A DNA stretch of 64,000 bases from Nakamurella flavida (GTDB lineage Bacteria > Actinomycetota > Actinomycetes > Mycobacteriales > Nakamurellaceae). This document shows, one piece after another, positions 40,423 to 50,332 of this stretch. The stretch spans positions 4,138,880 through 4,202,879 of the forward strand of contig NZ_JAUSQV010000001.1 of assembly GCF_030811475.1 (NCBI RefSeq). The letters are read 5' to 3'. The translations under genes were made by a program, and so were the position numbers. The notes below the pieces were generated by a model. The model saw only the letters and a program-made list of their open reading frames with translations. It made no database searches and was not told where the DNA came from. How positions within the stretch are numbered: position 1 is the first letter of the stretch; every line of letters starts with the position of its first letter.

Positions 40423-41223
40423 TCAGCGCTCCGGGTGGGTGGGTTCGAGGGAGGAGGTGGGTGCGCGCCGGTGCGGGACGGCGTCGAGCAGGGCGTCGAG
40501 CAGACCGGTGTCGGACGGGCGCTCGGCAATGCGGTGGACGGTCAGCCCGGCTGCCACCGCGGCCTGCGCGGTGGCGGCGCCGATGGCCACCACGATCACC
40601 CCGGCCGCCAGGGGGGTCGCGGCCAGGGCGGTGGCCGTGCTGGTCGAGGTGAGGAGCACCGCGCCGAGGTCGCCGCTGCGCAGATCGGCGGCGATGCGGT
40701 CCGGGACCGGATGCACGGTGGTGCGGTAGGCATCGACCTCGGTGACGGTCCACCCCCTGCCCCGCAGCGCCTCCGGGAGGTCGTCGGCGGCCAGCGCCGA
40801 TCGCGGGAGGAGGACGGTGCCGTCGCCGGTGGGCCAGACGCGAGCGAGCTCGGCCGCCGAGCCGGCCCCCGGGGGCTGCAGATCGACGGGGAGCCCGGCG
40901 GCCCGGACGGCGTCCGCGGTGGACCGCCCGACCACGGCGACCCGGGTGTCCGCCGGGACCAGGGGATGGACGGCGAGAGCGGCCGCCCGGGACAGCACGG
41001 CGTCCACGGCGGTGACCGAGGTCAGCGCCACCCAGTCCCACGTCCCGGCGGCCAGATCGAGCACGGCCAGATCCAGGCGTCCGGGATCGGCGGGGGGCTC
41101 GAAGGAGATGAGCGGGACGGCCTCCACCTGTGCGCCGGCCTCGTGCAGCAGACCGGTCAGCGCGGTCCCGCGGCCCGGCGGGCGGGGGACGAGCACCCGC
41201 ACGCCGGCCAGCGGTCCCGTCAC
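40423..41223 (-). CDS. hemD: Uroporphyrinogen-III synthase
   Basis: 266-aa enzyme that cyclises and inverts ring D of hydroxymethylbilane. The family is weakly conserved, but the two-lobed layout is visible: [11 protein letters not shown] at the start, [34 protein letters not shown] and [11 protein letters not shown]. Position between hemC and hemB settles the call. Its GTG overlaps the hemC stop. It is not fused to a methyltransferase, unlike in many actinobacteria. Confidence 0.92.
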
Positions 41224-42185
41224 GTCCGGGGTGCGGCCAGCAGGGCGGCCGCCCCGGCGGACAGCATCCGCCGGGCCAGGGCGGCACCCACCTCGGCCGC
41301 GTCGGCCACCGGACCCCTGATCTCGTCACGGATCTCGCGCGACCCGTCGACGGCCAACACGGTCCCGGCCAGGGCGAGCTCACCGTCGTGGACCGCGGCG
41401 AAGGCGCCCAGCGGCGCGGTGCACCCGGCCTCCAGGACCGACAGCAGGGCCCGCTCGGCGACCACGGCGGCCCGGGTGTCCTGGTCGTCGACCGCTCGCA
41501 GCGCGCCGGCGAACGGGCCGTCGTCGGCGGCGATGGTCAACGCCTCCACGGCGAGCGCTCCCTGTGCGGGTGCGGGCAGCATCTCGTCCGGGCCGAACTG
41601 CTGGGTGATGCGCTCCGTGCGGTCCAGCCGGGCCAACCCGGCCACGGCCAGCACGACCGCGTCCACCGTTCCGGAGGTGACCAGGCCCAGTCGGGTGTCG
41701 ACGTTGCCGCGGACCGGCACGACCTCCAGATCGGGCCGGCGCAGCAGGAGCTGCGCGGCACGACGGGGGGACCCGGTACCCACCCGGGCACCGCTCGGCA
41801 GGGTGTCCAGGGTGAGACCGTCCCGGGCGCACAAGGCGTCGAACGGGTTCTCCCGCACCGGCACCGAGGCCAGCGCGATGCCGTCCGCCGCCGCGGTCGG
41901 CAGATCCTTGAGCGAGTGCACGATCACGTCCACCCGGCCGGCCAGCAGGGCCGTGCGGACCCCGGTGACGAACACCCCGGTGCCGCCGATGCTGGCCAGC
42001 GGGCCGAGATTCACGTCGCCCTCGGTCCGCACGGTCACCAGGTCGACCGATGTCCGGGCGTGCCCGGCGATCCGCCCGGCGATCTGGCCGGACTGGGCCA
42101 GCGCCAGCGCGCTGCCCCGGGTGCCGACGCGCAGCACACCGGGACCACCCGCCGGCTCGCCGAGCGGTGCAGGGGAGGAGGTCAC
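41220..42185 (-). CDS. hemC: Hydroxymethylbilane synthase (porphobilinogen deaminase)
   Basis: 321-aa enzyme polymerising four porphobilinogens. [13 protein letters not shown] opens the fold; catalytic Asp is in VHSLKDLP, cofactor-binding basic residues in [10 protein letters not shown], and the dipyrromethane-carrying C255 in [14 protein letters not shown] start at 42185 overlaps the hemH stop, and the stop overlaps hemD (GTGA at both ends). Confidence 0.97.
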
Positions 42186-43465
42186 GCCGGCAGGGTCCCC
42201 GGGATGCCGGAGGCGACCAGGGCGGACCCGGTGACCTCGAGGCCGGCCCAGTCGGCCGCGGAATCGACGGCGGCGGTGGTGGGCTTGGCGCCGCGGGAGT
42301 TCCGGCAGCAGCCCGGCGCGCAGAAGTCCGGTCGGGCCGGCAGGTCCACGGCGCTGGCATCCACGCCGGCGCCGTAGCCGACCGTCGTCCCGGACAGTCG
42401 GCGGACGACGAGATCGGCGAGATCGGCGACGAAACGCGGATCGGTGCCCGGGGTCCGGACGCGGCGGAAGAACAGCTCGTGCTTCTCCGCCGTCTCCAGG
42501 GCCTCGTTGTCCAGATCCCAGATGACCTCGACGTGATCGGAGACGAAGCCGATCGGGACCACGATCACCCCGCGACGCCCGGCGGCGGCGAGATCGTCGA
42601 TGATGTCGTTGATGTCGGGCTCCAGCCACGGCATCGACGGCGGGCCGGACCGCGACTGGTAGCCCAGCTGCCAGGTCGGCACCGCAGCGCCCAGCGCCTT
42701 CTCCGCCTGCGCCATGACCTCCCGGGCCACCGCGAGGTGCTGCGTGACGTAGGCGCCACCGTTGCCGTGGTCGTCCAGGGTGGCCGACCCCGATGAGTCG
42801 CCCATGGTGTTCGGCACCGAGTGGGTGGTGAAGACGACCTCGAGATCGGTTGCCGCCAGGCCCTTCTCGGACGCCTCGCGCAGCGCCTCGACGGTGCCGT
42901 CGACGAACGGGGCCAGGAAACCGGGCTGGTCGAAGTACGGCCGGACCTTGTCGACCCGTACCGACCCCACGAGGCCGGTGCGCTCCAGGGCCATGCCGAA
43001 GTCCTCCCGGTACTGCCGGCACGAGGAGTACGACGAGTAGGCGGACGTGGCCACGCCGAGCAGCCGGACGAGCCCGTCCCGGTGGGCCTGGGTGATGGTG
43101 TCGCCGACGAACGGTGCCCAGTTGCGGTTGCCCCACAGGACCGGGACGTCGATCCCGCGGCCACGCAGCTCGGCCTCCAGGGCCTCGCGCAGTGCGCGGC
43201 TCTGGGCGTTGATCGGGGAGACCCCGCCCAGGGCCTGGTAGTGGTGGGACACCTCGATGAGACGCTCCTCCGGGATCCCGCGGCCGCGGGTCACGTTGCG
43301 CAGGAACGGCATCACATCGTCCGGGCCCTCCGGCCCGCCGAACCCGGCCAGCAGCACGGCGTCGTAGCCGGGCACGCCGGGACCGCTCGCGGTACCGGCA
43401 GTGGTCGCGGTGACGGAGCCGGTGGCGCCGGGACCGGTCCCGGGGGCGGCAGCGAGATCGGTCAT
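42182..43465 (-). CDS. hemH: Coproporphyrin III ferrochelatase
   Basis: 427-aa ferrochelatase; with HemQ next door it should insert iron into coproporphyrin III (CpfC role). Catalytic His215 (TTHSVPNT) and an acidic partner in SDHVEV are present. C149 (SSYSSCRQY) and the C-terminal C382/C386/C387 (FCAPGCC) match the positions of [2Fe-2S] ligands known in actinobacterial ferrochelatases. The first ~32 residues are an Ala/Gly/Thr-rich extension. ATG overlaps the hemQ stop. Confidence 0.95.
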   Translation of the reverse strand: MTDLAAAPGTGPGATGSVTATTAGTASGPGVPGYDAVLLAGFGGPEGPDDVMPFLRNVTRGRGIPEERLIEVSHHYQALGGVSPINAQSRALREALEAELRGRGIDVPVLWGNRNWAPFVGDTITQAHRDGLVRLLGVATSAYSSYSSCRQYREDFGMALERTGLVGSVRVDKVRPYFDQPGFLAPFVDGTVEALREASEKGLAATDLEVVFTTHSVPNTMGDSSGSATLDDHGNGGAYVTQHLAVAREVMAQAEKALGAAVPTWQLGYQSRSGPPSMPWLEPDINDIIDDLAAAGRRGVIVVPIGFVSDHVEVIWDLDNEALETAEKHELFFRRVRTPGTDPRFVADLADLVVRRLSGTTVGYGAGVDASAVDLPARPDFCAPGCCRNSRGAKPTTAAVDSAADWAGLEVTGSALVASGIPGTLPA

Positions 43466-44232
43466 GACAGCACCTCGACCACACCGGCCTCGTCGACCCG
43501 GCGGCCGGAGAAGAACGGGGTCTCCTCGCGCACGTGCATGCGGGCACCGGAGGCACGGAGATGGCGCATCAGGTCGACGGTGTCGTGCAGCTCGTCGGCC
43601 TCCAGGGCCAGCAGCCACTCGTAGTCGCCGAGCGCGAACGCGGCGACGGTGTTGGACAACACCTGGTCGTAGGCCCGGCCCATCATGCCGTGCTCCACCA
43701 GCATGCTGCGGCGCTCCTGGTCCGGCAGCAGGTACCACTCGAAGGAACGGACGAACGGGTACACGGTGGCCCACTCCTTGGCGGGCATGCCGGCCAGGAA
43801 CGCGGGTACGTGCCCCTTGTTGAACTCGGCGGGCCGGTGCAGGCCCATGGCCGACCAGAACGGGGTGAGCGTCCGGCCCACGGCGGTGCGGCGCAGCGCG
43901 CGGGCGGCGTCCTGCAGCTTCTCCGGGGTGGCGGCGTGCCACCAGACCATGAGATCGGCGTCCGCACGCAGACCGGAGACGTCGTAGAAGCCGCGGATGA
44001 CGACGTCCTGCTCGGCCAGGTCGGCGACGAGCTGGGTGAGCTCCTCGACGGCCTTCTCGGTCGGGGAGTCGAACTCGGCGGTGCGGCGGTAGACGGCATA
44101 GGTGGTGTAACGGATCTGCGCGTTGATCTCCCGCGCAGTGGGGCCGCGGCGCGCCGCCGGATCGGCGGGAGCGGCCGCTGCGGGGGCGTGCGCGTCCGGG
44201 GCCTGCGGAGCCCCGTCGGTCTGCGATGTCAT
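43462..44232 (-). CDS. hemQ: Coproheme decarboxylase (HemQ/ChdC)
   Basis: 256-aa member of the chlorite-dismutase fold that decarboxylates coproheme to heme b, the last step of the coproporphyrin-dependent route. Family blocks include YAVYRRT, ADLMVWWHA, GLHRPAEFNKGHVPAF, VYPFVRSFEWYLLP and the probable proximal heme ligand H181 in VEHGMMGRAY. About 30 N-terminal residues are low-complexity Ala/Pro. The ATG at 44232 is preferred to one 18 nt upstream because GGGAGGATGG lies just before it. Confidence 0.96.
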   Translation of the reverse strand: MTSQTDGAPQAPDAHAPAAAAPADPAARRGPTAREINAQIRYTTYAVYRRTAEFDSPTEKAVEELTQLVADLAEQDVVIRGFYDVSGLRADADLMVWWHAATPEKLQDAARALRRTAVGRTLTPFWSAMGLHRPAEFNKGHVPAFLAGMPAKEWATVYPFVRSFEWYLLPDQERRSMLVEHGMMGRAYDQVLSNTVAAFALGDYEWLLALEADELHDTVDLMRHLRASGARMHVREETPFFSGRRVDEAGVVEVLS

Positions 44233-44313
44233 GACTCCATCCTCCCCCAATCCCCGGCGGGCCCCCGGGTCACGGGGGCGGATGTGGTCGAGATGACGTG
44301 CCGGGGTCCAGGG

Positions 44314-45813
44314 TCAGCCGGCCGGCCGGGTGTCGACCTGGTCCGCGGCGGGGCCGGGGGCGTCCACGGCCGGGGTGGGATCCAGCAACCGTCGAGCGGT
44401 CTCCCGGGCGTCGGCGACCGTCGCGGCCAGTCCGGTGCCGGCGACGAAGGTGCCCGTCACCGCGAGCGGGTGCTCCGGACCCAGCGCCGCCAGGGCCGCC
44501 CGGAGACGGGCGACCGCGGCCCGCTGGCCGACCCGGGGCGCCGGCAGCACGGACTCCCACGTGACGACGGCGGTGTCCAGCACCTGGCCCGGCCGCAGCG
44601 GGACCCCCAACAGATCGGCGGCGTCCGCCAGGGCGAGCGCGGGGAGGTCGGCCGGATCGGGCAGATCGGGCCCGCCGGACCCGGCAGAGCACTGTCCCTC
44701 GTCCCGGCCGTAGGACAACCGCAGCACGTGGACACCGGATCCGGCCCGTTCGGCCAGCCACGACCACTTGGCCGTGGCGTGGGTCAGGGCCTTAGCCCGC
44801 ACCCCGGTCACCCCCGGGGCGACGAGCACGCCGGTGCCGCGGGGGGCGCGGTGCAGCTCCGGGGCGCGCACCACCAGGGTGGCCAGGCGGACCGGGGTGC
44901 TGGCCGCGGCGACGCCGGCCCGGGCCTCGTCGGGGACCAGGCCGGCCAGCAGACCGTCGGCGGTCCCGCCGGGGACGGCGAGCACGACCGCCGCCGCAGC
45001 GATCGTCGTCGACCCGAGATCGACGACCCATCCGGCGGCGTCGCGGCGCACGGCCCGGACGGCCGCCCCGGTGCGCAGTTCGGCGCCCGCCGCGGTCGCG
45101 GCGCGGGTCAGCGCGTCGGTCAACGTGTTCATCCCGCCGTGCAGCCCGGCGACGGCCGATCCGCTGCGTCCGGCGGCTCCGCGGATGCGCCCCGCACCCG
45201 CGGAGAGTGATCCGGTCCCGGCCACCGCGGCACGCAGGCCGGGGGTCACCGTGTCCATCTCCAGCGTCGACGGATCGGCGGAGTAGACGCCACCCGCCAC
45301 CGGCCGGACCAGGCGCTCGAGCACCCGGGAGCCCAGCCGTCCGCGCACCGCGCTGCCCAGGGTGGCCCGTGGTCCCATCGCCGTCCCGGCGGGCAGCACG
45401 CGGTCCAGGCTCGCCCGGGCTGCGCCGGCCAGGCCGATCACCCGTCGGACGTCGGCGGTCCACGGTCGGGACGGGATGCCCAGCAGGCCGTTCGCGGGCA
45501 GCGGGGCGGCGCCGGCGCGGTGCCGGACCCACGCGCCCACCGGGTTCGGTGCCACCACCGCGTCGTCCAGGGCGAGATCGGCGATCAGCAGGGTGACCGC
45601 CGGTCGGGTCAGGGCGTAGGAGTCGGCACCGGCGTCGACGGCCAGACCGCCGACCCGGTGCGCGGTGACCGCGCCGCCGAGCCGGGACCCGGCCTCCAGC
45701 AGCAGGGTGCGGCGGCCGGCCGCCGCGGCCTCCCAGGCGACGAGCAGACCGGCCACCCCGCCGCCGACGACCACGACGTCCCACCGTCCCGTCGCCACCG
45801 CAGGCCCGGTCAC
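44314..45813 (-). CDS. hemY: Coproporphyrinogen III oxidase (HemY/CgoX)
   Basis: 499-aa FAD flavoprotein. In an organism with HemQ it should oxidise coproporphyrinogen III to coproporphyrin III. The dinucleotide-binding motif VVVGGGVAGL is at about 14-23, followed by the LLEAGSRLGGAVTAH loop and VDAGADSYALTRP. A C-terminal FAD-binding block is TGTFVAGTGLAATVADARETAR. GTG start overlaps the hemE stop; 81 bp separate it from hemQ. Confidence 0.94.
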   Translation of the reverse strand: MTGPAVATGRWDVVVVGGGVAGLLVAWEAAAAGRRTLLLEAGSRLGGAVTAHRVGGLAVDAGADSYALTRPAVTLLIADLALDDAVVAPNPVGAWVRHRAGAAPLPANGLLGIPSRPWTADVRRVIGLAGAARASLDRVLPAGTAMGPRATLGSAVRGRLGSRVLERLVRPVAGGVYSADPSTLEMDTVTPGLRAAVAGTGSLSAGAGRIRGAAGRSGSAVAGLHGGMNTLTDALTRAATAAGAELRTGAAVRAVRRDAAGWVVDLGSTTIAAAAVVLAVPGGTADGLLAGLVPDEARAGVAAASTPVRLATLVVRAPELHRAPRGTGVLVAPGVTGVRAKALTHATAKWSWLAERAGSGVHVLRLSYGRDEGQCSAGSGGPDLPDPADLPALALADAADLLGVPLRPGQVLDTAVVTWESVLPAPRVGQRAAVARLRAALAALGPEHPLAVTGTFVAGTGLAATVADARETARRLLDPTPAVDAPGPAADQVDTRPAG

Positions 45814-46901
45814 GGCTGGTCGTGGATGAACGCCACCAGCCGGGTCAGCACCTCCGGGTCGGTGGTCGGCGGCACGCCGTGACCGAGGTTGACCACGTGT
45901 CCGGGCGCCGCGCGACCGCGCTCGATGACCTCGGCGGCGTGGGCGTGCAGGGCGTCGTCCCCGGCGAACAGCAGGGCGGGATCGATGTTGCCCTGCAACG
46001 GGGTCCGGCCGCCGAGCCGGGAGTTGGCCACGTCCAGCGGGATGCGATGGTCGATGCCCATCGCGTCCGCACCGGCGTCGCGCATGGCGACCAGCAGCTC
46101 ACCGGTCCCCACCCCGAAGTGCAGCCGGGGGACGCCCAGCTCGCCGATCCGGCTCAGCACCCCGGCCGAGTGCGGGGCCACGAAGGCCTGGTAGTCGGCC
46201 AGCGACAGCGCGCCGGCCCAGGAGTCGAAGAGCTGCACGGCGGACGCCCCGGCCAGCACCTGGGCGTGCAGGAACTGCGAGGTGATGCCGGCGACCCAGT
46301 CGGCCAGAGCGTGCCAGCTCGCCGGGTCGGCGTGCATCATCGCCTTGGTGTGCAGGTGCTCCCGGCTCGGACCCCCCTCGACCAGGTAGGACGCCAGGGT
46401 GAACGGCGCGCCGGCGAAGCCGACCAGGGGGGTGGTGCCCAGCTGGGCGACGGTCCGGGCGACCGCCTCCGCGACCGGGGCGAGCGCCGCCGGATCCAGG
46501 ACGGGCAGTGCGGCGACGTCGGCCGCGGTCCGGACGGGGTGGGCGACCACCGGGCCGGTGCCGGGGACGATGTCCACGTCCACGCCCGCCAGTTTGAGCG
46601 GAACCACGATGTCGCTGAACAGGACGGCCGCGTCCACCCCGTGGCGGCGCACCGGCTGCAGGGTGATCTCGCTGGCCAGGTCCGGGTCCAGGCAGGAGTC
46701 GAGCATGGCGACCCCGGCGCGGATCGCGCGGTACTCGGGCAGCGAGCGGCCGGCCTGCCGCATGAACCACACGGGGTGACCGGCGGTCGGCCGGCCGGCC
46801 AGCGCGGTGACCAGGGCGGAATCCGTGGTGCGGCCGTCCCGGAGCGGGTGGTCGACGGGCAGGGCTGGGTGGGCGGGGGCGTGATCCGTGCGGGTGTCCA
46901 T
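45810..46901 (-). CDS. hemE: Uroporphyrinogen decarboxylase
   Basis: 363-aa enzyme removing four carboxyls from uroporphyrinogen III to give coproporphyrinogen III. The signature PVWFMRQAGRSLPEYR is at 43-58; catalytic Asp is in LFSDIVVP, and GFAGAPFTLASYL and HFGVGTGELL follow. The ATG at 46901 gives the usual length; a longer frame to 47105 runs through the divergent promoter region and is rejected. First gene of the leftward heme operon, divergent from hemA. Confidence 0.97.
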   Translation of the reverse strand: MDTRTDHAPAHPALPVDHPLRDGRTTDSALVTALAGRPTAGHPVWFMRQAGRSLPEYRAIRAGVAMLDSCLDPDLASEITLQPVRRHGVDAAVLFSDIVVPLKLAGVDVDIVPGTGPVVAHPVRTAADVAALPVLDPAALAPVAEAVARTVAQLGTTPLVGFAGAPFTLASYLVEGGPSREHLHTKAMMHADPASWHALADWVAGITSQFLHAQVLAGASAVQLFDSWAGALSLADYQAFVAPHSAGVLSRIGELGVPRLHFGVGTGELLVAMRDAGADAMGIDHRIPLDVANSRLGGRTPLQGNIDPALLFAGDDALHAHAAEVIERGRAAPGHVVNLGHGVPPTTDPEVLTRLVAFIHDQP

Positions 46902-47099
46902 GGTGCCCCCATCGTCCCAGAGCGGTGGGAGTGCCCGGCCGGGCCGTCGCGGAAAGGTGATCTGGACCGCGTCCAAACTGGCCGTTTCCACCGCCCGGTG
47001 TGCATCCGGCCAGCTCAGCCGATGTGACCTGCGCCGGTGGTGCCCGGGGCGGATCATCTGGTAAGGGTCGCCTTCGTGGAGACGCGCCGTTCGCGTCGC

Positions 47100-47105
47100 T
47101 AGCAT
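47100..47105 (+). promoter_or_regulatory. Promoter of leaderless hemA
   Basis: TAGCAT ends 7 nt before the hemA ATG at 47113. TGGAGA (47077-47082) sits 17 nt upstream as a 4/6 match to TTGACA. This is the best -35/-10 pair seen in the window. Confidence 0.55.
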
Positions 47106-47112
47106 TCAGATC

Positions 47113-48393
47113 ATGCTCATGGTTCTCGGTGCCAGTCACCACGACCTCGAGCTCACCCATCTCGAACGGCTGACCACCGGCGGCGATCTGCTCGATCGCG
47201 CCGTGCTGGAGCTCGTCCGGTCGGGCTCCGACACCTCCTTGGACGCGCCCGTCCTCGGGGCAGTGGTCGTGGCGACCTGCAACCGCCTGGAGATCTACCT
47301 CGAGGCGCGTCGTTTCCACGACGCGATCGACGCGGTGGCCGCCGCCGTGGCCACCGCCGCCGGCATCGAACCCGACGAGGCCACCGCCCTGCTCAAGGTG
47401 CGGGTGGGCGCCCCGGTCGCCGCCCATCTGTTCTCGGTCGTCAGCGGCCTGGACTCGATGGTCGTCGGCGAGGCCGAGATCGCCGGTCAGGTCGGCCGCG
47501 CCTTCCGCACGGCCCAGCTCGCCGGCACCACGACCACCCTGCTCAACGCGCTCTTCCAGTCCGCCGCCCGGACCGCCAAGCAGGTCACCTCGACCACGTC
47601 GCTGGGTGCCGCCGGACGGTCCATCGCCTCGGTGGCCCTGGACGTCGCCGAGGAGCGGTTCCGCGTCCCGGCCACCGCGCTGGTCGTGGGCACCGGTGCC
47701 TATGCCCGCGTCGTCGCGGCCGAGCTGCGCACCCGGGGCTGCCAGGATCTGCAGGTCTTCTCGCCCAGCGGCCGCGCCGACTCGTTCGCCGCACGCCACC
47801 ACGCCGTCCCGGTCGGTCAGGACGCCCTGGTGGACGTGCTGGCCAAGGTCGACATGGTCGTCACGTGCAGTGGCGGTTCCGGTGACGCACTGGCCGCGGA
47901 GACCCTCCGTGAGGCCGTGGCCCGGCGCGACACCTCGCTGCCCATCGTGGATCTCGCTCTCCGGCCGGACGTCTCCGAGCCGGCCCGCGCGGTGCCCGGG
48001 GTGCAGGTCATCGATCTGCGCACCGTCTCCGAGCGGGTCGACCCGATGCACGCCGGGCAGTTGACGGCGGCCCAGGACATCGTGATCGCCGCGGTCGCCG
48101 CCTTCGAGGAGGAGCAGGTCGTCCGCCGGCTGGACCCGGCCGTGGTCGCCCTGCGTCGGCACGTCACCGCCGCCGTGGAGAAGGAACTGACCCGACTGCG
48201 CGGGAAGTACGACGACGCGGTGGCCGCCGACGTCGAGCTGGCCATGCACCGGGTGACCCAGTCGCTGCTGCACACCCCCACGCTGCGGGCCAAGGAGCTG
48301 GCCCGGACGGGGGAGGGTGCCGGTTACGTACAGGCCCTGCACACCCTGTTCGGCATCGAGGTTCCCGCCGACCAGGACGCCCACACCCACTGA
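47113..48393 (+). CDS. hemA: Glutamyl-tRNA reductase
   Basis: 426-aa NADPH-dependent enzyme reducing glutamyl-tRNA to glutamate-1-semialdehyde, the committed step of heme synthesis. Catalytic C56 is in VVATCNRLEIYLE; VVSGLDSMVVGEAEIAGQV, the NADPH loop LVVGTGAYARV and a C-terminal dimerisation helix follow. The ATG at 47113 is supported by the TAGCAT box 7 nt upstream; a second ATG at 47119 is possible. Divergent from hemE, so both arms of the pathway could be controlled from one 211-bp region. Confidence 0.97.
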   Translation: MLMVLGASHHDLELTHLERLTTGGDLLDRAVLELVRSGSDTSLDAPVLGAVVVATCNRLEIYLEARRFHDAIDAVAAAVATAAGIEPDEATALLKVRVGAPVAAHLFSVVSGLDSMVVGEAEIAGQVGRAFRTAQLAGTTTTLLNALFQSAARTAKQVTSTTSLGAAGRSIASVALDVAEERFRVPATALVVGTGAYARVVAAELRTRGCQDLQVFSPSGRADSFAARHHAVPVGQDALVDVLAKVDMVVTCSGGSGDALAAETLREAVARRDTSLPIVDLALRPDVSEPARAVPGVQVIDLRTVSERVDPMHAGQLTAAQDIVIAAVAAFEEEQVVRRLDPAVVALRRHVTAAVEKELTRLRGKYDDAVAADVELAMHRVTQSLLHTPTLRAKELARTGEGAGYVQALHTLFGIEVPADQDAHTH

Positions 48394-48400
48394 GTGCCGG

Positions 48401-48460
48401 TGTCCGCGAAGTGCTGGTGTCGGTGGGGTGCGATGTCCGCGGAGCGCTGAAGTCCGCGGA
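48401..48460. repeat. Short direct repeats between hemA and the cysO-like gene
   Basis: TGTCCGCGAAGTGCTG (48401) recurs as TGTCCGCGGAGCGCTG (48434), with a third partial copy AGTCCGCGGA (48451), inside a 78-bp convergent gap. The palindromic TCCGCGGA core could form a weak bidirectional terminator. Confidence 0.4.
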
Positions 48461-48471
48461 CCGGCGGCGCG

Positions 48472-48747
48472 TCAGCCCCCGGCCACCGCCGGGATGACCG
48501 CCACCGTCGACCCGATCGGGACGACCGTCTGCAGTCCGTCACCGAAACGCACGTCGTCCTCGTCGACGTACACGTTGACGAACCTCCGCAGCACGCCGCG
48601 CTCGTCCAGCACCCGCCCGGCGATGCCCGGGAAGCGGGTGTCCAGATCGGCCAGCACATCGGCCACGGTGGCGCCGTCGGCGTCCACCGTGGCCTGCCCG
48701 CCGGTGTAGGTGCGCAGCACCGTCGGGATGCGGACGGTGACGCTCAC
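48472..48747 (-). CDS. MoaD/ThiS-family sulfur carrier protein (CysO-like)
   Basis: 91-aa ubiquitin-like protein ending PAVAGG, with the C-terminal Gly-Gly needed for adenylation and thiocarboxylate formation. It starts VTVRIPTVLRTYTGGQ and contains RFVNVYVDEDDVRF. From memory this is close to mycobacterial CysO, which delivers sulfide for cysteine synthesis with CysM and is cleaved by Mec+. No moa, thi or cysM gene is nearby. Its GTG overlaps the stop of the upstream threonine synthase-like gene, so the pair is translationally coupled and shares the SAM riboswitch. Confidence 0.9.
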   Translation of the reverse strand: MSVTVRIPTVLRTYTGGQATVDADGATVADVLADLDTRFPGIAGRVLDERGVLRRFVNVYVDEDDVRFGDGLQTVVPIGSTVAVIPAVAGG

Positions 48748-50033
48748 ACCAGGCCGGCCTGCTCGAACGCGGCCAGCGTCGGCTTGATCGTGGCGGTGGG
48801 GCCGACGGAGGAGGCGATCGCGTCCAGGGTCTTCAGGCCGTCACCGGTGTTGAAGATGACCGTCTCCTCGTCGGGATCCAGCGCGCCGGTGGCCAGCAGC
48901 TTGCGCAGGGTGGCCACGGTGACGCCGCCCGCGGTCTCCGCGAAGATGCCTTCGGTCCGGGCCAGCAGCTTGATCGCGTCGATGACGTCGTCGTCGCTCA
49001 CGTCCTCCACGGCCCCGCCGGTGCGGCGGACCACGTCCAGCACGTACGGGCCGTCGGCCGGGTTGCCGATGGCCAGCGACTTGGCGATGGTGTCCGGCCG
49101 GACCGGGCGCACCACGTCCTCGCCGGCCTTGAACGCGGCCGCCACGGGGGAGCAGCCGGTGGCCTGGGCGCCGAAGACCTTGTACGGGCTGGCGTCCACC
49201 AGGCCCAGCTCGACCAGCTCGGTGAACCCCTTGTCGATCTTGACCAGCTGCGCGCCGGACGCGATGGGGATGACGACCTGCTTCGGCAGGCGCCAGCCCA
49301 GCTGCTCGGCCACCTCGTAGCCCAGGGTCTTGGAGCCCTCGGCGTAGTACGGCCGGACGTTGACGTTGACGAACGCCCAGTCCTCCTGCTCGGCCGCGAT
49401 CTGGCCGGCCAGCCGGTTGATGTCGTCGTAGTTGCCGTCGACGGCGACCAGGGTGCCGCCGTACGCGGCGGTGGTCAGGATCTTCTGCTGTTCGAGGTTG
49501 CTGGGCACCAGGACGACCGAGCGGATGCCGGCCCGGGCGGCCGCGGCGGCCACTGCGTTGGCCAGGTTTCCGGTGGACGGGCAGGCCAGCACCGAGAAGC
49601 CGAGTTCACGGGCGGCGGCCAGCGCCACGGCGACGACACGGTCCTTGAAGGAGTGCGTGGGGTTACCGCTGTCGTCCTTGACCCACAGGGTCTTCATGCC
49701 CAGCTCGCGGGCCAGGTTGTCCGCCCGGATCAGCTTGGTGTTGCCCGGGTTGATGTTCGGGGTGGAGGCGATGCCCGGGGGGACCGGCAGCAGGGGGGCC
49801 CACCGCCAGATGTTGTCCGGGCCGGCCTCGATCGCCGCGCGCAGCTCCTCGCCACTGCTGGCGAACTGGTAGGCGACCTCGAGGGGGCCGAAGCACTCGG
49901 TGCAGGCGTAGAACGGGCCGAGATCGACGCGGTGGCCGCACTCCCGACAGGAGAGCGCCACGGCGGGGCCGAGGTCGATCGTGGGGGCGCCGTCGGTCGC
50001 GGGGGACGTGGACAGCGTGGCAGAGGTGGTCAT
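48744..50033 (-). CDS. thrC: Threonine synthase-family PLP enzyme (possible homocysteine synthase)
   Basis: 429-aa fold-type II PLP enzyme of the threonine synthase family. An N-terminal zinc-ribbon-like Cys4 set (C29, C32, C44, C47) precedes the PLP lysine K130 in PTHSFKDRVV, the phosphate loop and ETAGGVTVATLRKL. The family replaces the phosphate of O-phosphohomoserine. It is not next to hom or thrB; instead it is coupled to a sulfur carrier and controlled by a SAM-I riboswitch. A sulfur-adding role (homocysteine from O-phosphohomoserine) is therefore an alternative to threonine synthesis. The ATG at 50033, after AGAAGGG, is the true start: the ATG at 50054 is inside riboswitch helix P1. 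Confidence 0.9.
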   Translation of the reverse strand: MTTSATLSTSPATDGAPTIDLGPAVALSCRECGHRVDLGPFYACTECFGPLEVAYQFASSGEELRAAIEAGPDNIWRWAPLLPVPPGIASTPNINPGNTKLIRADNLARELGMKTLWVKDDSGNPTHSFKDRVVAVALAAARELGFSVLACPSTGNLANAVAAAAARAGIRSVVLVPSNLEQQKILTTAAYGGTLVAVDGNYDDINRLAGQIAAEQEDWAFVNVNVRPYYAEGSKTLGYEVAEQLGWRLPKQVVIPIASGAQLVKIDKGFTELVELGLVDASPYKVFGAQATGCSPVAAAFKAGEDVVRPVRPDTIAKSLAIGNPADGPYVLDVVRRTGGAVEDVSDDDVIDAIKLLARTEGIFAETAGGVTVATLRKLLATGALDPDEETVIFNTGDGLKTLDAIASSVGPTATIKPTLAAFEQAGLV

Positions 50034-50040
50034 GGTGATG

Positions 50041-50047
50041 CCCTTCT
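50041..50047 (-). promoter_or_regulatory. thrC ribosome binding site beside riboswitch P1
   Basis: AGAAGGG lies 7 nt before the ATG at 50033 and only 2 nt after the closing helix of the SAM aptamer. This suggests control of translation initiation rather than transcription termination. Confidence 0.7.
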
Positions 50048-50049
50048 GG

Positions 50050-50186
50050 CTCATCTTCCCCGCGACGGTCGTCGCGGGACGGATGTGGCACCTGCTGCCG
50101 CCGACCGGATCGCTGGGCGATCGATGGTCGGGAGCCGTGGTTGCCGGGGCTTCATCGGGCCGTGTCCCTCTGCCCCTCTGGATGAG
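50050..50186 (-). ncRNA. SAM-I (S-box) riboswitch
   Basis: The minus strand folds to the S-box plan. P1 is CTCATC (50186-50181) with GATGAG (50055-50050). The P2 and core blocks read CAGAGGGGCAGAGGGAC, GGCCCGATGAAGCC and CGGCAACC. P3 is CCGACC...GGTCGG with an inner GATCGC/GCGATC helix. Then come AGGTGCCACATCC, a P4 hairpin CCCGCGAC/GTCGCGGG and the closing AAGATGAG. All invariant S-box segments are present. It senses S-adenosylmethionine and should repress when SAM is high. No terminator follows; the ribosome binding site does. Confidence 0.95.
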
Positions 50187-50295
50187 GTCGTATGCACTTG
50201 TGGGTGTGGCCGGGAGTGCTGGTGACGCGGACCGCGGGTCCGTGCCCGGTCGCCCGGAGCGGTGCGGTCGGTTGATCGTAACCGACGATCGGCGA

Positions 50296-50332
50296 CCCGC
50301 CGGGCGGTCGGGGAGACCGGCCGCCCGGCGGG
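50296..50332 (-). terminator. Terminator of the cyclophilin gene
   Basis: A perfect 12-bp stem (CCCGCCGGGCGG / CCGCCCGGCGGG), extended by about four inner pairs with a 5-nt loop, begins 11 nt after the cyclophilin stop on the minus strand. Confidence 0.75.

Follow-up and report, generated by a model that had tools for sequence, protein, structure and literature searches.

Organization of the locus

The window, the 64,000-nucleotide stretch of DNA analysed here, carries on the minus strand of positions 48472–50188 a SAM-I riboswitch aptamer followed by a gene for a 429-residue PLP enzyme and a gene for a 91-residue ThiS-type protein. The aptamer (S box, RF00162; 50048–50188, minus strand) scored 67.5 bits with cmscan (gathering score 44.4; E = 1.4e-13 for the 64-kb window), and the match spans the full model, positions 1–108, so the complete SAM-I aptamer recognized in an earlier sequence-only reading of this DNA was borne out. 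It was the sole Rfam match at the gathering level within the 64-kb window. In the whole genome, a single contig of 4,320,333 bases, it was the only RF00162 match among those listed at E ≤ 0.001 under stricter filters. Directly 3' of it lies a Shine-Dalgarno-like AGAAGGG (50041–50047, minus strand), judged from its sequence to be a probable expression platform acting on translation. The first gene, metM (48744–50033, minus strand), starts with an ATG at 50033, 14 nt after the end of the riboswitch; an in-frame upstream ATG at 50054, inside the aptamer P1, is an unlikely start. From its profile matches and residues, the product is proposed to be an O-phosphohomoserine:thiocarboxylate homocysteine synthase resembling threonine synthase. 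The TGA stop of metM overlaps the GTG start of metO (48472–48747, minus strand) in the sequence GTGA, and metO encodes a sulfur carrier of the ThiS/MoaD type with a C-terminal Gly-Gly, as indicated by Pfam ThiS and the carrier tree. The unit is flanked by hemA (47113–48393, plus strand) and a peptidyl-prolyl-isomerase-like gene, both named by reading of the open reading frames, and is not a hom/thrB locus. A neighbourhood of heme genes (41220–48393 of the window) adjoins it, read in the same way as hemA, hemE, hemG-like, hemQ-like, hemH and hemC.

The enzyme, the carrier and the host genome

MetM matches Pfam PALP at 4e-72 and the NCBIfam thrC model TIGR00260 at 276.9 bits (cut-off 167.1), as a canonical ThrC would, and by sequence the solved structures most like it are threonine synthases (best E 4.8e-51). 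Together with the hemA and isomerase-like neighbours, the PALP and TIGR00260 matches agree with the earlier description of a PLP gene of the threonine synthase family away from hom/thrB. The TIGR00260 score and the structures would also fit a second, SAM-regulated threonine synthase, which we nevertheless consider very improbable. A canonical hom-thrC-thrB operon, foreseen by the sequence-only reading as something to look for, is present elsewhere in the genome (hom and thrB named by reading; ThrC 301.4 bits to TIGR00260), so that metM, which does not share this context, is not the only thrC. The two enzymes are 38% identical. By comparing 110 MetM with 30 ThrC sequences, the PLP-lysine motif was found to be common to both, whereas in some 50 columns conserved in ThrC (at least 90% of the 30) MetM conserves other residues (at least 95% of the 110). 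Residues G58, T88, S156, R161 and N189 of the organism's own ThrC, positions that we take from work on T. thermophilus ThrC to handle phosphate or water, correspond to H127, L157, N225, Y230 and S259 of MetM. The CxxC..CxxC segment at the MetM N-terminus appears zinc-ribbon-like by our reading. A SAM-I riboswitch upstream of nearly all MetM genes of the class (counts below) and a sulfur carrier as partner also argue against threonine synthesis. A plain threonine synthase was rejected because of the gene content of the genome, the association with the riboswitch and the differing residues.

The small GTGA-coupled carrier with a Gly-Gly end, also noticed from the sequence alone, was confirmed: the 91 residues of MetO match Pfam ThiS at 2.7e-16 and terminate in IPAVAGG. 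Among solved structures, those nearest to it are 4n6e_B ("ThiS/MoaD family protein") and 3dwg_C ("9.5 kDa culture filtrate antigen cfp10A"), which we take to be carriers solved with their partner enzymes, 3dwg_C presumably being CysO with CysM. The organism's own CysO aligns along the whole of MetO. In the carrier tree, the MetO of the window falls outside the CysO clade, and the MetO rows adjacent to metM do not form one clade; as this tree has only 91 columns and the window branch is long (0.87), only the separation from CysO was used. The possibility that the window carrier is the cysteine carrier CysO was rejected, since CysO has its own locus and clade. Among 87 MetO reading frames, 10 end in PAVAGGC, with an encoded Cys past the Gly-Gly (e.g., L042 and L052). 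Furthermore, the own CysO (L021:3597–3896) has a 9-residue extension after PAVAGG, itself ending in VAGG, and several other CysO frames extend past GG; thiocarboxylation may therefore require prior trimming.

Over the cut-off, the genome has four matches to the ThiS family: MetO, CysO beside Mec and CysM, and two others that by our reading adjoin MoaA-like and ThiO/ThiG-like genes. The mec-cysO-cysM locus (mec and cysO named by reading) is separate, and metM-metO has no linkage to it. The sole ThiF-family match over the cut-off is a MoeZ equivalog (725.4 bits, cut-off 647) away from the window. In addition, the genome contains MetY (761.7 bits, cut-off 703), MetX (490.8 bits, cut-off 475), CBS (648.9 bits, cut-off 510.25) and a cystathionine gamma-synthase-type gene (637.6 bits, cut-off 513), and therefore the metM-metO unit need not be essential; MetX and MetY may mask a methionine requirement upon its loss. 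The search for metX, metY and metB suggested by the sequence-only reading thus recovered metX, metY and the cystathionine gamma-synthase-type gene, and the unit is not the sole homocysteine route here. A SAM-IV riboswitch (RF00634, 105.7 bits; L018:3146–3262, plus strand, outside the window) lies in the leader of metY-metX, a short way 5' of where metY probably starts (near L018:3345). With MetY/MetX under SAM-IV and metM under SAM-I, the organism has two homocysteine routes that differ in their class of SAM riboswitch, and the SAM control of metM in parallel with metYX supports a role in methionine synthesis.

Probable riboswitch control and the distribution of metM

The following Shine-Dalgarno and spacing counts refer to the 109 loci, out of 110, in which the P1 3' strand was identified. 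The distance from the P1 end to the first in-frame start codon is 11–21 nt in 84/109 loci; the other 25 distances (2, 33 or 36 nt) were left out as probably wrong start choices. In the window, the last base of the P1 motif is 16 nt from the ATG. In 82/109 loci, the first Shine-Dalgarno-like tetramer includes the final two or three bases of P1, a count that is an upper bound because the lenient pattern includes GAGA and GAGG, easily begun by the P1 end GAG. The tetramer begins 3–5 nt past P1 in 19 loci, the window included, and by this lenient pattern none was found in the remaining 8. Four or more T between P1 and the start occur in just 2/109 loci, and there is no terminator-like site at 48380–50330 of the window. 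A terminator-type expression platform was rejected, given its absence from the window and the little room for one in most loci. Because of the short distance from P1 to the first in-frame start, the riboswitch probably acts on translation, through a SAM-stabilised P1. In the unconstrained, ligand-free fold predicted for the window leader (z −2.64), four bases of the P1 5' strand pair with the start codon instead of the P1 3' strand; the centroid is without this pairing. At face value, the predicted fold would give no support for a start site that is open without SAM, but the ligand is outside the model and the fold is not decisive.

MetM was detected in 106 of 148 genomes of the class, the own genome included (E ≤ 1e-80). 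Of these 106 genes, 104 are preceded on the same strand by RF00162 within 800 nt, and the two exceptions are incomplete hits (G067, cut by a contig end, and G015, partial). When MetX is scored at E ≤ 1e-50, with 8 weak matches out of 78 (38–47% identity) counted as present, 43 of the 148 genomes have MetX and MetM, 63 have MetM alone, 35 have MetX alone and 7 have neither. MetX is absent from 63 of the 106 MetM genomes versus 7 of the 42 without MetM (Fisher p = 2.9e-6, not corrected for kinship). MetA (PF04204) was found in 4/148, and canonical ThrC in all 30 class genomes searched, the own genome included. Many Streptomyces are reportedly without canonical homocysteine genes.

In a draw from the phylum, 56 of 149 genomes contained MetM, 4 of these in the same class. 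Among the best-scoring 16 loci of the 52 MetM genomes from other classes, a carrier is adjacent in 14, so the metM-metO pairing looks ancestral; two of these 14 carriers score slightly higher with the CysO than with the MetO query and have no Mec or CysM nearby. RF00162 reaches the gathering level in 9 of the same 16 loci, and no match at that level was found in the other 7. The survey of homologue neighbours, another step laid out in the sequence-only reading, strengthened its case, with the class-wide riboswitch association and a carrier adjacent in 86 of 109 metM loci overall; the 23 loci without one, like the 7 without RF00162, count against it. These 109 combine 80 loci from the genome contig set (71 with carrier) and 29 class loci (15 with carrier), some genomes being represented in both. 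A contig labelled Spirochaetaceae MAG (L092) is probably mislabelled or mis-binned, because in the tree columns its MetM does not differ from the MetM of an actinobacterial genome (L034).

Several lineages keep the riboswitch and metM without an adjacent metO. No adjacent carrier was found in the 4 Pseudonocardiaceae loci of the set (Lentzea, Saccharothrix, Pseudonocardia, Actinokineospora), in a Nakamurella MAG, in the examined loci of families f10, f14 and f33, or in some Nocardioidaceae MAGs. The Nakamurella MAG holds the nearest named match to MetM (86% identity, in a listing that may omit records of the window's own genome); its metM and a hemA-like gene face each other, an arrangement also seen in the window, with no metO between the two, and only pieces of CysO were found in it. 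In a 72-row MetM tree made by a quick method, which retained only 8 Streptomyces rows from the genome contig set, the carrier label changes at least 6 times, 3 of them forced by well supported branches. The MetO query was run on 15 genomes of f10, f14 and f33, namely 14 with orphan metM and G058, whose metM contig ends before the spot. It matched in 13, and the best match in 13/13 was the CysO beside Mec and CysM; the draft genomes G119 and G074 gave no match at E ≤ 0.01. MetX is absent from 11 of the 15 (10 of the 14 orphan genomes), and none of these is among the four genomes with PF04204. CysO or pieces of it were present in all eight further genomes reached through their loci (G150 apparently equals G051).

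Some of these genomes carry other carriers as well. G012 and G035 have a further, different one besides CysO, and a distinct Gly-Gly carrier lies, by our reading, beside a sialidase/WD40-like beta-propeller gene in L067, L068, L162, L163, L164 and L166. Five of the eight further genomes hold this propeller-linked carrier (L162, L163, L164, L166 and, weakly, L168). The second carrier of some orphan-metM genomes (41–52% to MetO) was rejected as a MetO, as it has the beta-propeller-like neighbour and forms its own group with L168 in the tree.

The many MetM genes that retain the riboswitch without an adjacent carrier, the 13 genomes whose best MetO-query match is CysO, and the Nakamurella MAG could mean that the MetM of the window makes homocysteine mainly with CysO-COSH or free sulfide, MetO being accessory or working elsewhere. 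This is improbable, because metO overlaps metM in the window genome and a carrier adjoins most of the best-scoring loci of other classes. For the orphan lineages without MetO (the Pseudonocardiaceae seen, the Nakamurella MAG, and f10, f14 and f33), we tentatively hypothesize, at slightly less than even chances, that CysO supplies MetM and so feeds both cysteine synthesis from O-phosphoserine and homocysteine synthesis from O-phosphohomoserine, while the window organism has two carriers, a second homocysteine route and two SAM riboswitch classes. This hypothesis builds on gene content rather than biochemistry, and many of the genomes are drafts. In a partial search of the literature on MetM, carriers and SAM riboswitches, we recognized no statement of such sharing, and we do not claim that it is unpublished.

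Proposed function and comparison with known systems

We consider it very likely that metM and metO form an operon under a SAM-I riboswitch, serving carrier-supplied homocysteine synthesis that is shut off by SAM. The basis is anatomy, homology, gene content and riboswitch association, from which we infer the reaction, the role of MoeZ and translational control. In this pathway, MoeZ would adenylate and thiocarboxylate the C-terminal Gly-Gly of MetO, and Hom and ThrB would supply the O-phosphohomoserine bound by MetM. On PLP, MetM would eliminate phosphate and add sulfur from MetO-COSH at C-gamma, and the resulting homocysteine would go to methionine and SAM. High SAM would then stabilise the aptamer P1, the 3' strand of which lies right next to the ribosome-binding site, and translation would decrease. 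The unit would work in parallel with the MetX/MetY route under its own SAM-IV riboswitch. The sequence-only proposal of a homocysteine synthase using carrier sulfur under SAM feedback is thus supported, since homology and arrangement point to MetM/MetO function. A standard model labels the gene as threonine synthase, and the methionine prototrophy of many actinobacteria is therefore easily misjudged; SAM-I and the adjacent carrier correct this label. The window genome is a clean case of two homocysteine routes under different SAM riboswitch classes, and in orphan metM genomes the idea that cysteine and methionine synthesis share a carrier can be put to a direct test. The two SAM-controlled routes within a single genome, together with the lineages that have an orphan metM, most deserve the attention of specialists.

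Canonical ThrC and MetM share the fold family and the PLP-lysine motif SFKDR, with O-phosphohomoserine as the proposed common substrate, but differ in conserved residues and operon. The HcyS system of Wolinella succinogenes reportedly also uses a protein thiocarboxylate as sulfur donor for homocysteine, but with a MetY-type enzyme acting on O-acetylhomoserine and not one of the ThrC type. CysM uses O-phosphoserine and CysO (excerpts of PMC11361707), and is similar in combining a phospho-amino acid with a homologous carrier; its product is cysteine, and mec-cysO-cysM is a separate locus in the window genome.

Excerpts of PMC12172450 describe a Microcystis homologue that is 51.6% identical to Streptomyces albulus MetM, adjoins a metO-like carrier gene and has no riboswitch. 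It is reported there to have threonine deaminase activity and not to be fully functional as MetM in cells. By analogy, the window enzyme could be a threonine deaminase or another replacement enzyme, but this is extremely improbable: separate IlvA-like genes are present in the genome by our reading, the riboswitch-free Microcystis gene differs in control, and SAM control and the carrier would go unexplained. The Streptomyces gene SCO4293 is listed as bound by ArgR and as a putative threonine synthase (excerpts of PMC3293853 and PMC5839063). It is probably metM, because its ARG-box sequence as printed in them agrees with the beginning of metM loci from Streptomyces, L105 for example.

The homocysteine synthase function, offered as new by the sequence-only reading, had already been published in 2024 for Streptomyces, where Hasebe et al. 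identified MetM as a homocysteine synthase (Appl Environ Microbiol 90:e01247-24, as described in excerpts of PMC12172450). According to the same excerpts, S. albulus has the carrier MetO and a SAM riboswitch upstream of metM. The window shares with it a ThrC-like PLP enzyme beyond the canonical ThrC, an adjacent Gly-Gly carrier of the ThiS/MoaD type and an upstream SAM riboswitch. Its MetM is 67–70% identical to those of the Streptomyces loci compared, which have the same layout with a carrier next door. The riboswitch-controlled metM-metO unit is an already known kind of system found in another organism, which differs from S. albulus in that its genome also has metY-metX under SAM-IV.
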